Below are positions 8,050 through 30,771 of a DNA stretch of 64,000 nucleotides, in pieces. The number at the start of each line of letters is the position of its first letter. Positions within the stretch are counted from its first letter, which is position 1. Source of the stretch: an uncultured Treponema sp. (GTDB lineage: Bacteria; Spirochaetota; Spirochaetia; Treponematales; Treponemataceae); contig NZ_CAMCEC010000010.1 in assembly GCF_945873775.1 (NCBI RefSeq), positions 1 to 64,000 on the forward strand, in the 5' to 3' direction. The translations under genes and the position numbers were made by a program. The notes under the pieces are model-generated. The model saw nothing but the letters and a program-made list of their open reading frames with translations. It did not search any database and had not been told where the DNA came from.

Positions 8050-8880
8050 TTAGCGCATTGATTTTACAGCATTTATAATCTGGGCAGCATCTCCAGTTTT
8101 AAACATTTCCTCAAGTTGCGGAAATTTCTGAAGCATCGCTCCAAGTTTTTCAAGCTGCGCCAAAGTTCTGTCCTGCTCAACAAAAAATTCCGCCTGCGAT
8201 TCAGCCTTTTTCGCCATTTTAGAATTCAAAAGATCAAGATAAGACGCATAGTTCGCCTTCGCAAGATTGTAAAGCTCAACATCTGGAATTTTTGAATCAA
8301 GAAGCTCGACTGAAGAAATTAAAATTCCATCAAACTCAGAAGCCTTTTTTTCAATTACCTCTTGAATTTCTTTTTGGCTTAATGCGGAAGGTTTTACCAT
8401 GGAAGAAGATGAAACAAGATATTCCGCAACAAGTGAAGCCGCAAGTTTTGCCTTCGCATCGTAAAATCCTTTTAAATCTTCATTTGAAGTTATTTTATTT
8501 TCAGAAACCAGCTTGTAAATTCCTTCAGGAGAAAGGCTCATCGAAACTGAAATTTCAACATTGTATGAAAAGTCAACTTTTTTATCAGAAAAACGTGAAC
8601 TATAAAATGCCGCGCTCGGAAGTTCTCCAGAAACAGACTGATTTGTTTTGTAAACTGCAAGGTCAAAAATTTCCAGCGAAACATTTGTTGGAAGAAGCCG
8701 CTCCCATCTCCAAGTGAAAACTCCGGGAACGACAGCAGAATGATACAATCCGCCTGTTTTTGATTTCATTATAGCGCAAGTTCCAGGGCGCACATAAAAT
8801 TGAATCCATCCAATAAAAAAAACTACCGCTGAAAAAATCAACAAAACTATAAAATTAGCAAAAAACTTCTTTACTTTCAT
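8050..8880 (-). CDS. membrane-anchored SPFH/prohibitin-like protein
   Basis: 276 residues with one N-terminal transmembrane helix (about residues 9-30) and the rest outside the membrane. The segment after the helix (YVRPGTCAIMKSKTGG, then VPGVFTWRWERLLP) looks like the start of a band-7/SPFH domain, and a long helical, Ala/Lys/Glu-rich region follows (about 140-276). Such proteins form membrane scaffolds; no enzyme motif is visible. It is the first gene of a three-gene minus-strand operon with aroH and glgA. A purine-rich GTGGGG precedes the ATG. Family assignment is moderate. Confidence 0.55.
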   Translation of the reverse strand: MKVKKFFANFIVLLIFSAVVFFIGWIQFYVRPGTCAIMKSKTGGLYHSAVVPGVFTWRWERLLPTNVSLEIFDLAVYKTNQSVSGELPSAAFYSSRFSDKKVDFSYNVEISVSMSLSPEGIYKLVSENKITSNEDLKGFYDAKAKLAASLVAEYLVSSSSMVKPSALSQKEIQEVIEKKASEFDGILISSVELLDSKIPDVELYNLAKANYASYLDLLNSKMAKKAESQAEFFVEQDRTLAQLEKLGAMLQKFPQLEEMFKTGDAAQIINAVKSMR

Positions 8881-22960: not shown

Positions 22961-24913
22961 ATGAAAAAACTCATAAATATTGTTCTGCTATTTTTATCGT
23001 TCAGCCTTTATTCACAGACAATAGCTTCAACTCAGTCGCATGAAGGAAAAGTCAATGCCCTGCTCTCTTCGGAAACAGAATCTTCTTCTGACGACTCATT
23101 TTATTCAGTTGGAAACGACGGATTCATTATAAAATGGACTTCGGACGGAATGGGAGACCATTACCAAGTTTCCGACCTGCAAGTGCGGCTTGTTGCAAAA
23201 AATCCAGTTTACGGAGACATCGCGGTTTATGAAACAGACGGAGTTTCAAATCATAGGCTGACCGTAATAGATTCAAAAACTTACACAAAAAAGTTTTCCA
23301 AGAAATTTGCAAACTCAATAGTTTCAATTTCGTTTTCAGCAAAGGGAAAATATCTTTTTGCCGGAACAACGGCGGTAAACGGAACTTTTGTTCTAAATGC
23401 GAGAACTGGAACTGTAATAAAAAAAGCAACCGATGTTTCAGGAATTGTTCCGCTCATTCTTACAGGCGATTCAGAAAAAACTGCTGTCATGTACTCAAAG
23501 TCAGGAACGCTTTATTATTACGATTTGATTGGAATGAAAGTCAAGGCGAAATTTTCCGCGCCAAGTTCTTTAAATCAGCTTACACTTTTTGGCACAGGAA
23601 ACTTCAAAAACAGATTTATTGCCGGAGAAAAAAACAACACAATATTTATACTTGATGCGACGTCTGGAAAAACTCTTGCGCAGTACCAGGCAAACTCGCC
23701 GCTCATTTTCGCTTCTAAATCTAGCCACGAAGACAAACAGGGACTTTATTTTATAGCTGACGGCGGAAAAAATTTTTCGTTGCAACTTGTAGATCAAGAA
23801 TCATTGAAAAAAATTCTTACTGGAAAATCGGCAGTTTCACCGCTTATTATAAAGAATTTCACAGGACTTAAGAGCCGCGATAAATTCACCTGCGCTGCAA
23901 AAAACGCAGAAACTGTAATGCTCGGAACACAAAACGGCGCGCTCTATTCTATGACAGACATTCCAGAATCAGAATTGTACAGCATTTTTGCAATCACAGA
24001 AAATATGTACCAGAAAATCTATGACATTGATTCTGATGAAAGTCTTTTCTATCTTTTGACACAAAACGCAATTTTTAAAACTTCCTATGACACAAAAGCC
24101 ATGTACAGACTAGGCTCAAGTTTTTCTCACACAAATATTCTAAAATACAATGACTCTCTTATTTTGTGGTCAAAAAATACACAGCGTCCAGTTCAGCAGA
24201 TGTCCTTGGATGGAAGCGAAAATACAAAAACTTTATTCACGCCATCTGCTCAGCTTAGAAACTTGAGAGTGTTCAAAAATAAAATTGTATACATTCTTGG
24301 CACTTCCATTGTCGCAATCTATGATATGGAAACAGGAGCAAATTCAACTGTATACACAGGAACTTCGGTTCAAGATGCGGTTCTTGTAAATGAAAATCTA
24401 GTTGTCGTTGCAAAAACTTCTACAGGAAAAGGAGATTCCGCAATAGTTTCTGTAAACACCCAGACAAAAGAAACTGTTCCGCTCAAATTCAATGGAGATG
24501 TTGCATTCTCATTAAGCTATGATGAAAACAAGGAAACCTCTCCTATATACGGAATCGCAATTGATTCGATAAACGGCACATCAAAGACACTTGTATTTTC
24601 TTACTATCCAAAGTCTGGAATCCAAAATTCGCTGTTTACGTTGCAGGCAGAAGATTCCACTGCATTTACAGAACTTGAATATCCGTTCGTGTTCACGAAC
24701 ATCGGCAAAAACCAAGTGCGCTCATACAATATTTCAGCAGGAAAGACAACCATATTCCGCCGCTCCGCTTCTATGCCGCTAAAAGCCGCCGCATCAAAAG
24801 ACAGAGTCGCAGTTCTTAACTACAACGGAAGCATTTCCTGGTACAATCCAAGCTCGCAGATTCTTCTTGCAGACTGGTACTTAACAACAGACGGAGACTG
24901 GATAGAATTTTAA
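22961..24913 (+). CDS. secreted WD40/propeller-like protein
   Basis: 650 residues with a signal peptide (hydrophobic 5-16, then YSQT). The mature protein has many short strands with blade-like repeats (SYSVGNDGFIIKWTSDG-type, GKYLFAGTTAVNG, MLGTQNGALYSM), pointing to a beta-propeller, possibly two. It ends LADWYLTTDGDWIEF. Function is unknown; it may act as an envelope scaffold. It follows rseP by nine bases with a GAGG Shine-Dalgarno and so is probably the last gene of that operon. Confidence 0.68.
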   Translation: MKKLINIVLLFLSFSLYSQTIASTQSHEGKVNALLSSETESSSDDSFYSVGNDGFIIKWTSDGMGDHYQVSDLQVRLVAKNPVYGDIAVYETDGVSNHRLTVIDSKTYTKKFSKKFANSIVSISFSAKGKYLFAGTTAVNGTFVLNARTGTVIKKATDVSGIVPLILTGDSEKTAVMYSKSGTLYYYDLIGMKVKAKFSAPSSLNQLTLFGTGNFKNRFIAGEKNNTIFILDATSGKTLAQYQANSPLIFASKSSHEDKQGLYFIADGGKNFSLQLVDQESLKKILTGKSAVSPLIIKNFTGLKSRDKFTCAAKNAETVMLGTQNGALYSMTDIPESELYSIFAITENMYQKIYDIDSDESLFYLLTQNAIFKTSYDTKAMYRLGSSFSHTNILKYNDSLILWSKNTQRPVQQMSLDGSENTKTLFTPSAQLRNLRVFKNKIVYILGTSIVAIYDMETGANSTVYTGTSVQDAVLVNENLVVVAKTSTGKGDSAIVSVNTQTKETVPLKFNGDVAFSLSYDENKETSPIYGIAIDSINGTSKTLVFSYYPKSGIQNSLFTLQAEDSTAFTELEYPFVFTNIGKNQVRSYNISAGKTTIFRRSASMPLKAAASKDRVAVLNYNGSISWYNPSSQILLADWYLTTDGDWIEF

Positions 24914-28714: not shown

Positions 28715-29193
28715 TCAAAAGTCTCCCATCCAAGTGGCGTCTGCTTTTTCGTATTTTTCTTTTCTTGGAAGATAATCCTTTTCAATCTGGCGTTTTGCTT
28801 TCTTCAGTTTTTTTTACGTCTTTTGAATCTTCGTCATCAAGGCCATTTATTTCGGCGAGTTTTCTATTGATCCGCTCGGCAACGGCTTTGATTTCCTCAC
28901 TTGTTACTGGAGTATCTACCTGTAAGTTTTCTTCTACAACCCGATGGATATAATAGTAGCGTTCCTGAAGATTTTTTTACTTTGCTGAAAATTGCTATAT
29001 GATGAGAAAAAGGAACTTTGAAAAAATCTTCTACAGGAAAGTCTGCAAGATTGATTCCTGAAATCTTAAAATCCGAAATTGGAATTATTGCTGTTAATTC
29101 GGTAGACGCTGCTAATGAATTTGAAGATTGTAAAATTGCTGTTTTTATTGCTTCTACTGCTGTGATTAGTTCTTGATTCATTTTATTCTCCAT
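28715..29193 (-). pseudogene. DUF1016/YhcG-like gene with deletion and two frameshifts
   Basis: The start MNQELITAVEAIKTAIL (ATG at 29181) and the later segment FPVEDFFKVPFSHHIAIFSKVK match the layout of DUF1016 (PDDEXK-type YhcG) proteins, with most of the middle missing. At a seven-A tract (28972-28978) the frame shifts; removing one A continues NLQERYYYIHRVVEENLQVD, as the family expects. At an eight-A tract (28808-28815) a second +1 shift breaks the frame; removing one A continues KLKKAKRQIEKDYLPRKEK to a TGA at 28715. The tail may derive from another gene. Both breaks are single-A gains, so sequencing error is possible. Confidence 0.6.
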
Positions 29194-30523
29194 TCTCTAC
29201 AATCTCCCAGTGTCCAGACTTGTCCGAACCGATACGCTGAATCGCGCCGATTTCCACTAATTTTGCCAAAGCTCGTGTTACCGTGGCCCGTGACATTCCG
29301 ATTTTTTCAGCAATCTTTTCTTTTGATAAATTAGGATTATCAGCAATAACGGCAAGAACCAATTTTACAGGCTCATTTGCCTTGAACATCATCATAATAT
29401 CATTGGGATGAACCGTATATTCAGGCTCGGCAATTCCGTATTCCTTACAAAGATTGCAAATCTTTTCTATGCCACGGCCCCAGCTTTCTATAAAGCCCGC
29501 TCTAAAGAATGTATTTGCAATATCCGGGTTATGGGGAAGCGAACGATGTTTTTGCATTAAAGTGTCGGCTGTCCAATTGGCAGGAAAAACACAGTCATTG
29601 CTGATATAAAGCTTATCCTTGTAAACACTGATTTGCACAGGCACGCCAACAGAAAAATCCTGATGAATGAGCGCGTTGAACACCGCTTCTCGCACGGCAT
29701 CTTTAGGGAATGGATAATGCTCAATTCGAGTTATGTTGTCATAAGAGATTTCTGCAGTCAGATATTTTGTATAAAGCAAATCTATAACGCGGTCTGCCTG
29801 AATCATAAGAGAACCATGAACTTCATCCTGATAGCGCAAGTCTGCGTCAGTTTCAAAAAAACCGATTTTTACAAATGAACCTGTTATCCATTTTTCCGGA
29901 TTTCGATGAAATAGCAAAACCGCTGCACGCTTAAGCAAAGTCCCGTCAAGAAGATTCAATTTCTCAAGCAAATCCTGATTTGAGAGTTTCAAGTCATCCT
30001 TACTCATTCTTCCGCTACGGATTGCTTCACGGTGAAAAATATCAAAGCTTTCTTTATCAAGGTCTTCAACGCTCACATTTTCAAGCGGAACAGAATCCCA
30101 ATTTTTGCCAGTCTTACGCAGAAGAAAATTAGTCAGCGCAGAACCTTGCAAAAGTTGTTTTGTGCTTCCAGTTCTATAATGATACTCACCCTTGTAATTC
30201 ACAGGATAAGGATTTTCTTCAACAGTGATTTTTATAACATCAAGTCCGTTCTCAGTAATCAAATCCACATCAACAATCAATCCAAGAGCATCACGAACTT
30301 TATTCGGAATATCTTCCATAAGCCTCTTTGAATCACCAACGCCACAAACAGAGCCGTCATCACGCTTACCAATATAAAGCACACCACCCTGCGCATTTGG
30401 AAAACGTCGCAATCCGCTTCGCGTCTTGCTAAACGAGTTTTGACAAGCAAAACTCGCGCAAATCCATTTGAGATATTCATCACGCCAACTTTCTTTGTAT
30501 TCGATTAACTGGGATTCGGACAT
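29183..30523 (-). CDS. AlbA_2-domain ATP-binding protein (RecG-like/Schlafen-type)
   Basis: 446 residues. The N-terminal AlbA_2 domain (EYKESWRDEYLKWIC, then NAQGGVLYIGKRDDG) binds nucleic acid in related proteins. A central GHKL-like region holds REAVFNALIHQDFSVG and ESWGRGIEKI, and a C-terminal winged helix (KIGMSRATVTRALAKL) ends the protein. It may be a regulator or defence accessory. Residues 27-42 (CQNSFSKTRSGLRRFP) split the ASFA-NAQGG motif and come from a palindromic 48-base insertion that keeps the frame. A good Shine-Dalgarno (AAGGAG) precedes the ATG. It sits between two copies of the DUF1016 gene start. Confidence 0.82.
   Translation of the reverse strand: MSESQLIEYKESWRDEYLKWICASFACQNSFSKTRSGLRRFPNAQGGVLYIGKRDDGSVCGVGDSKRLMEDIPNKVRDALGLIVDVDLITENGLDVIKITVEENPYPVNYKGEYHYRTGSTKQLLQGSALTNFLLRKTGKNWDSVPLENVSVEDLDKESFDIFHREAIRSGRMSKDDLKLSNQDLLEKLNLLDGTLLKRAAVLLFHRNPEKWITGSFVKIGFFETDADLRYQDEVHGSLMIQADRVIDLLYTKYLTAEISYDNITRIEHYPFPKDAVREAVFNALIHQDFSVGVPVQISVYKDKLYISNDCVFPANWTADTLMQKHRSLPHNPDIANTFFRAGFIESWGRGIEKICNLCKEYGIAEPEYTVHPNDIMMMFKANEPVKLVLAVIADNPNLSKEKIAEKIGMSRATVTRALAKLVEIGAIQRIGSDKSGHWEIVENGE
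30398..30456. repeat. palindromic in-frame insertion in AlbA_2 gene
   Basis: CGAGTTTTG (30434-30442), a five-base loop and CAAAACTCG (30448-30456) form a perfect nine-pair hairpin. Next to it is TCCGCTTCGC (30413-30422), also present at 11-20. The block encodes 16 extra residues (27-42) in a normally continuous motif. It resembles in principle the palindromic elements that insert in frame in Rickettsia genes. The precise ends are uncertain. Confidence 0.6.
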
Positions 30524-30540
30524 TAATTTCTCCTTTTTTG

Positions 30541-30628
30541 GGGCGTTCCCTACCTTTCGGCAGGTCGGGCTTTTCGCACTTCCGCTATCGCTCCATTCCT
30601 ACGCTCACTCTGTTCGCTTCGGAACGCC
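30541..30628. repeat. GC-rich element with inverted ends
   Basis: GGCGTTCC (30542-30549) and GGAACGCC (30621-30628) are perfect inverted ends around a C-rich core with TACCTTTCGGCAGGTCGG. It is clearly more GC-rich than the flanks and has no coding frame. It probably belongs to a dispersed non-coding repeat. It lies directly upstream of the AlbA_2 gene. Confidence 0.55.
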
Positions 30629-30666
30629 TTTGGCGGTGCTACAATCCCTAACGTTATATAACCTTT

Positions 30667-30729
30667 TTACCTATCCTTTAAAATTGCTGTTTTTATTGCT
30701 TCTACGGCTGTTATAAGTTCTTGGTTCAT
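30667..30729 (-). pseudogene. duplicated 5' end of the DUF1016 gene
   Basis: A Shine-Dalgarno (GAGGAATAA) and ATG at 30729 start a 20-codon frame, MNQELITAVEAIKTAILKDR, then a stop. Its first 17 residues are identical to the start of the broken gene at 29181. The DNA differs at several third positions, so the copies have diverged. It marks an old duplication or insertion event. Confidence 0.7.
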
Positions 30730-30771
30730 TTATTCCTCTTTATATTTTATAAAGCTTTTCTAAAATAGTAT

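Follow-up and report, generated by a model that had tools for sequence, protein, structure and literature searches.

A mobile two-hairpin repeat of Treponema in an AlbA_2 gene and at gene ends

The insert in an AlbA_2 gene of an uncultured Treponema sp. belongs to a mobile repeat family of this genus whose members have two hairpins and are recognised more by structure than by sequence. The gene lies in the window, the 64,000-nt stretch of DNA analysed here, which is part of contig 10 of a 2.59 Mb genome. In the explanation that we consider best, and regard as probable, the habitat of the repeat is the 3′ end of genes, where it comes with a foreign synonymous gene tail and is joined through its terminal GAC behind a G, and the AlbA_2 copy is an interior landing.

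The AlbA_2 copy and the repeat family

The host gene, the inserted element and its parts are located in the window as follows.

29183-30523, minus strand: host gene, a Schlafen AlbA_2/HATPase_c_4/winged-helix protein of 446 aa, with 17 inserted residues at about 23-39
30406-30456, minus strand: inserted element CGAGTTTTGCTTGTCAAAACTCGTTTAGCAAGACGCGAAGCGGATTGCGAC, 51 bp, with boundaries taken from 13 empty-site homologues
30434-30456, minus strand: hairpin 1, CGAGTTTTG-CTTGT-CAAAACTCG, with nine perfect pairs and the loop CTTGT
30430-30433, minus strand: linker TTTA; in the family, GTAA in 86 of 120 copies and TTAA in 26 of 120
30409-30429, minus strand: hairpin 2, with base GCAA...TTGC and inner part GACGCGAAGCGGA, based on the family pairing counts
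30406-30408, minus strand: terminal GAC, the precise right end, joined to the target at every junction examined
30405/30457, minus strand: insertion point, native TGC G/GT TTT GCA, where a Gly codon is split behind its first G

Pfam models SLFN_AlbA_2 and HATPase_c_4 matched the host gene. The first-pass annotation had described a perfect nine-pair hairpin and a reading frame unbroken by the insertion, and we found both, the hairpin at 30434-30456 and the frame open for 446 aa. The insert is exactly 51 bp (17 codons) between TTTGCG and GTTTTGCAAATGC, with no native base lost. In 13 empty copies, some of which are paralogues in one genome, ATTTGCG is directly followed by GTTTTGCAAATGC with minor variation, and none of them carries the inserted residues. 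Six filled copies, including the window, read ATTTGCG, 51 bp and GTTTTGCAAATGC, and one of these six (G018) has a rearranged left flank. These alleles corrected the previous description of 48 inserted bases and 16 residues splitting an ASFA-NAQGG motif: ASFA is encoded by the element, and the native motif is WIC-GFANAQGG. The insertion is clean, without imported flank and without target duplication. Its tolerance is explained by the length of 51, which is divisible by three; the window copy also contains no in-frame stop, so that the frame stays open.

In a structure model with moderate overall confidence (pLDDT 75.8), the inserted residues were part of a low-confidence loop (residues 22-45, pLDDT values below 50) between the first helix of the AlbA_2 domain (15-23) and the next strand (47-51). 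We propose that the insert may be a floppy loop that is tolerated rather than selected for. AlbA_2 was full length in the window copy only; the other carriers were truncated, frameshifted or approximately 100 residues short, and were mostly damaged (341, 272, 77, 41 and 27 aa), one of them with a stop codon within the insert. This damage argues that the insertion was not harmless, and counts against our best explanation.

The carriers shared 93-94% DNA identity with the window gene (87% in G065), whereas identity between the same genomes was 69-74% for pta and 77-82% for gpmI, indicating that the AlbA_2 gene moved horizontally between species. Synonymous sites in the flanks of the insert differed by 18-30% between carriers, with few nonsynonymous changes, and the 51-nt insert itself differed by 0-1 base. 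A near-invariant insert within diverged flanks suggests that the insert is younger than the divergence of the alleles, or constrained.

Other repeats were observed around this gene. In L080 and at 2860-2950 of L079, AlbA_2 carries a different insert after YKESW (CTCCTAAATTTAGAAGAAGTG..AAACATCCGATTATGTT) with a copy of the hairpin element directly behind it, possibly forming a longer composite repeat. The start of a YhcG-like gene is present twice in the window (29131-29190 and 30679-30738, 88% over 60 nt), one of the two copies being in the gap upstream of AlbA_2; this duplication suggests the loss or relocation of a former AlbA_2-YhcG unit. A 98-aa ORF on the minus strand (28897-29193) resembles a YhcG-like gene cut short relative to the full-length one in L079. 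The YhcG/DUF1016-like nuclease gene adjoining AlbA_2 in G089 (L079, ~1940-2010) contains two in-frame palindromes, AATTCGTCCGTTATGACGGACGAATT and AATTCGTCAGACGCGTCTGACGAATT. Between AlbA_2 and the HIRAN helicase, positions 30540-30655 of the window hold an intergenic cluster of GGCGTTCC.../CGGAACGCC palindromes, and similar pieces flank elements in L015 and L030.

The family anatomy, CGAG(stem)CTCG-[G/T]TAA-GC(stem)GC-GAC, was derived from matches with unrelated flanks. The window copy scored 47.3 bits against the family model (E 9.2e-12 within the window). Pairs 8-10 of hairpin 1 were formed in 114 of 120, 108 of 117 and 69 of 80 copies, compared with 42-54% expected. In hairpin 2, of which the finder demanded pairs 1-4 and left pair 5 onward free, pair 4 was formed in all 120 copies and pair 5 in 107 of 120 (~45-48% expected). 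The stem positions left free by the finder paired far above expectation with several pair types, indicating that the structure is conserved and the sequence drifts. Hairpin energy alone was not above chance (101 nt, z = -0.16) and was therefore left out as evidence. The element was judged to be real from comparative evidence, that is, dispersed copies and zero matches to the reversed pattern.

Of 200 Treponema genomes, 91 contained the element pattern, and the reversed control pattern gave 0; an earlier count had found dispersed copies in 53 of 146 same-genus genomes. The pattern was also present in five genomes from four other genera of the same family, and was absent from the sampled genomes of other families in the order. 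In a scan of 84,980 species, the matches listed were nearly all from Treponema/Spirochaetales records, and included one Clostridiales and one Acidimicrobiales bin. A long-repeat search within the window found no second copy, and no family of Rfam 15 was matched, only two chance-level miRNA matches far below the gathering score being returned. Isolate genomes carry the element at gene ends, namely T. saccharophilum DSM 2985 at gpmI (L096/L185) and T. zioleckii kT3 (L217); metagenome misassembly was thus ruled out. In L101, L204, L312 and L314, the element or a degenerate copy lies in the middle of a larger TGTCATT..AATGACA-type palindrome, like one repeat inserted in another.

A search of the present genome (G000) with the family model revealed other copies, about six being clear: six strong copies and several weak ones were found, with locations in the window, in a dimer on contig 29, behind ilvD on contig 3 and at two intergenic sites on contig 8. 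The first-pass annotation had also linked the AlbA_2 element to the palindrome at the window start (1-33) through a common core, TCCGCTTCGC. The family model did not match that palindrome, also when its filters were switched off, and the ten shared bases are therefore probably due to chance.

Gene ends and duplicated gene tails

Site preference was examined in 95 full copies with enough flank. Thirty-five of them (37%) started at most 20 nt past a stop codon, in the same orientation as an ORF of at least 100 codons, compared with 2% of random positions. ORFs of at least 120 codons contained 37% of the copies versus 86% of random positions, and this depletion marks the in-gene copies as exceptions. 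In-frame copies were found in AlbA_2 (51 nt), HsdS (45 nt), a flavodoxin gene (L187, 45 nt) and a KilA-N gene (L149), the last holding a head-to-head dimer; the in-frame insertion in AlbA_2 rests on the empty-site comparison, and for the other three genes it denotes an in-frame position within the ORF. The HsdS copy occurs in two species in reverse orientation, in the linker between the specificity domains, and the first-half repeat of the same HsdS is without the element. On contig 29 of the present genome, a head-to-head dimer (24700-24809; L304/L305) interrupts a flavodoxin-like gene that is also hit in L148, L181 and L187.

Many gene-end copies were directly followed by a repetition of the final codons of the host gene, mostly with synonymous differences. 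The gene-end unit consists of the rewritten last host codons, a stop, 2-20 nt and the element, with the native tail of the same gene immediately after it. With a filter of 70% amino-acid identity, 22 cases of stop-anchored tail duplication were found in 12 genes, the same gene in different species being counted repeatedly; their codons were identical in 95, synonymous in 88 and nonsynonymous in 12 instances. At the protein level, 30 of 85 copies showed tail duplication at a score of at least 30, compared with 1.7 expected from permuted pairing. The duplicated segments varied in length (about 15-45 nt). In the transketolase gene of L091, FTAKNLAKLLKK-stop is followed by 3 nt, the element and FTAKNLAKLLKK-stop again, with 10 of 12 codons synonymously different, and in the own genome ilvD has a second DKGAILQ-stop tail. 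The genes with duplicated tails were identified by NCBIfam/Pfam as tkt, ppdK, tagaturonate reductase, purH, pta, gpmI, pgk, asnB, an MsbA-like transporter and ilvD, together with groEL (Pfam) and hsdS (named by sequence). Tandem accretion of elements was found at groEL and purH; the groEL region is absent from G070. Within the duplicated gpmI tail of L276 and L278/L281, a second palindrome family was observed 3′ of the gene (for example GCGGGTTTAT..ATAAACCCGC followed by GAGTCAAGGC..GCCTTGAC).

The joining position was nearly constant. The duplicated segment began behind a G in 21 of 22 sites, and the base preceding the element was G in 104 of 112, a rule to which the AlbA_2 site conforms. The base after the terminal GAC belongs to the target and is variable.

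Comparison of sister genomes indicated which tail is native. Close relatives were 98-100% identical in the gene body, but the final 54-75 nt ahead of the element had been silently rewritten. The pta genes of G070 (with the element) and G024 (without) are identical up to SRGC, after which the last 18 codons show 12 synonymous and 0 nonsynonymous changes; in G070 these are followed by a stop, a spacer, the element, another tail, the native last bases and the native downstream sequence. The last imported bases after the element are non-native, which indicates that the donor already had the duplication, at least in that case. In pta of G123, the upstream tail is that of another lineage (70 of 75 bases shared with G168), and the copy behind the element and everything beyond it match the close relative G069 at 98%. 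In purH of G024 and G070, the body is 98% identical, the last ~75 nt are rewritten and two tandem elements are present. These comparisons show that the tail before the element is the imported one and the tail behind it the resident one. Plain target-site duplication does not account for most gene-end insertions, since synonymous differences separate the copies and, in sister genomes, the foreign tail is the upstream one; it remains suitable for a few insertions whose copies are identical, for example L094 and L217.

Among 24 genes compared in syntenic blocks, a tail drop of more than 0.1 was seen in only 6, four of them being pta or purH; codon conservation that generally falls off at every gene end is therefore not a full explanation. 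Element-free close pairs sometimes also showed rewritten pta tails, and tail rewriting and the element are thus not in one-to-one correspondence; such tails may be traces of old element losses through tail-tail recombination. Abrupt synonymous divergence limited to the last ~54-75 nt was observed for pta in L243/L246, L227/L228 and L238/L252 and for purH in L196/L186. In some of these pairs the divergence is present though the element is now absent.

Mode of movement

In the explanation that we prefer, element-bearing DNA would arrive from another strain or species. Its left side would be settled by homology in the last 50-80 nt of the gene, giving a foreign yet synonymous tail, and its right end (GAC) would be joined precisely behind a G in the resident gene tail. 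As the foreign tail is synonymous, insertion and repair of the host protein would coincide. Later, recombination of one tail with the other may remove the element and leave the rewritten tail alone. The need for a functional C-terminus would filter the survivors, and in-frame interior insertions such as that in AlbA_2 would be a rare tolerated alternative. There, the same element landed in the gene interior and was probably carried later between species with or within that gene.

No RAYT (Y1_Tnp) was found in the present genome. Across genomes, neither the presence of a RAYT (Y1 transposase) nor that of a reverse transcriptase was associated with the copy number of the element, the latter being absent in many high-copy genomes, and among proteins near copies no family recurred except the target genes. 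RAYT, reverse transcriptase and a recurrent neighbour protein were therefore rejected as drivers. A reverse transcriptase gene resembling the diversity-generating retroelement type was observed at 9195-9728 of contig 20 of G135, less than 1 kb from an element at 8299-8364 (L303); this proximity is probably a coincidence.

The lack of an enzyme in these searches would suit a passive 3′-UTR hairpin (REP- or terminator-like) spread by ordinary homologous recombination of neighbouring genes with no site-specific step, as would the position past stop codons and the arrival of foreign tails with the element. We consider this unlikely, since the right junction lies at the exact element end, behind G in 21 of 22 sites, the imported tracts are only ~54-78 nt, far below usual recombination tracts, and the AlbA_2 insertion brought no imported flank.

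The first-pass annotation had suggested a protein-invading repeat family of treponemes. The part of this idea that holds is that treponemes have a dispersed palindromic element, which can occupy in-frame positions in proteins; a family specialised in in-frame protein invasion, like Rickettsia palindromic elements, appears improbable. It would account for the clean in-frame AlbA_2 insertion, for the in-frame copies in HsdS, flavodoxin and KilA-N genes, and for in-frame monomers of 51, 45 and 45 nt. However, the copies are strongly depleted in ORFs and strongly enriched past stop codons, the element lengths (39-66 nt across the family) are generally no multiple of three, some reading frames of element copies carry stop codons, and one AlbA_2 carrier has a stop within the insert.

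A miniature relative of the integrase-driven islands that attach at gene 3′ ends and bring a replacement gene end would produce the same topology, namely a gene with a replaced end, the element and the displaced old end, and could undergo tandem accretion as seen at groEL and purH. This origin is quite improbable: the target genes are many and unrelated, the copies have no common core, and the rewritten tract reaches upstream of the duplicated segment, which strand exchange inside a repeat would not yield. Reverse transcription of a hairpin-ending mRNA primed at a nick behind G would fit the precise 3′ junction with its variable 5′ extent, the structure-defined element and the reverse transcriptase gene near the G135 copy, but it is highly improbable, as the tails are foreign alleles rather than copies of the resident gene and many high-copy genomes are without reverse transcriptase.

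Returning to the joining of an imported gene tail behind a G, we tentatively propose, at somewhat less than even confidence, a new kind of small mobile element. It would be a two-hairpin DNA unit, joined after a G by a putative activity, and would pass between orthologues in different species together with a short synonymous tail replacement, so that essential genes are invaded undamaged and old insertions leave silently rewritten tails. How small palindromic repeats without a transposase, which are common in bacteria, move is an old open question. Here, empty and filled sites, an exact target base and imported tails occur in one genus, and several carriers are isolates, which makes the question testable. 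If true, this proposal would explain why conserved genes such as pta, purH and gpmI diverge abruptly at synonymous sites near their 3′ ends, a pattern by which gene trees and tests for recombination can be misled.

Relation to known systems

The resemblance to Rickettsia palindromic elements (RPEs) pointed out in the first-pass annotation holds for behaviour only. Both are short palindromic repeats able to lie in frame within proteins unrelated to each other, and the empty and filled AlbA_2 alleles provide an in-frame ORF insertion with homologues lacking it, as in RPEs. The usual site of the Treponema element is past a stop codon with a tail copy, and the substantial in-gene share of RPEs is not seen (37% of copies in ORFs of at least 120 codons versus 86% of random positions). 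We know of no dedicated transposase for RPEs and, comparing them by behaviour and not by sequence, of no RPE counterpart to the silently rewritten duplications of gene tails.

Integrase islands that occupy gene 3′ ends, such as e14 in icd, provide a new gene end in place of the old one, which they displace. A replaced or displaced gene end is common to both systems, but the islands measure kilobases and the Treponema element is 50 bp with many targets. To our knowledge, within the coverage of open-access text, gene-tail replacement is otherwise known for large integrase islands only. MITEs are defined by features that differ from those found here: the ends CGAG.. and ..CGAC are not mutual inverted repeats, and there is no target-site duplication of fixed length, none being present in AlbA_2 and the gene-tail duplications being variable. 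Integron attC sites are characterised by a GTTRRRY core within one folded site and by an integrase; GTTAAGC, a sequence of this core form, is present in the minority of elements with the TTAA linker (26 of 120).

The Treponema element shares with CGTC-tagged REPs a small palindromic form without known transposase, a frequent location at gene 3′ ends, head-to-head dimers and an occasional position within ORFs. These REPs, to which RPE-4, RPE-6 and Neisseria dRS3 belong, have been reported for Spirochaetes (Di Nocera 2013, PMC3733652). They consist of a single 8-9 bp stem starting with AT, a loop of 4-5, a CCA tail and the tag CGTC (or TGTC/CCTC), and in-gene palindromic repeats are already known among RPEs and intragenic GTAG and CGTC REPs (PMC3733652). 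The text of that paper contains neither 'duplication' nor 'target site' (PMC3733652). In contrast, the Treponema element has two hairpins, with CGAG and GC bases, its stem starts with GC, and it has no CCA tail. Its end is GTC/GAC, and the CGTC of the AlbA_2 copy is completed by a target base. With the GTAG REPs, which are associated with RAYT (IS200/IS605-like) transposases, it shares the nature of a short, structure-defined repeat 3′ of genes, but there is no GTAG tag (the linker is GTAA in 86 of 120) and no RAYT in G000. The tested defining features of CGTC and GTAG REPs are thus lacking in the Treponema family, and there is a chance that its association with gene tails is new among small palindromic repeats and perhaps marks a distinct class of mobile unit.
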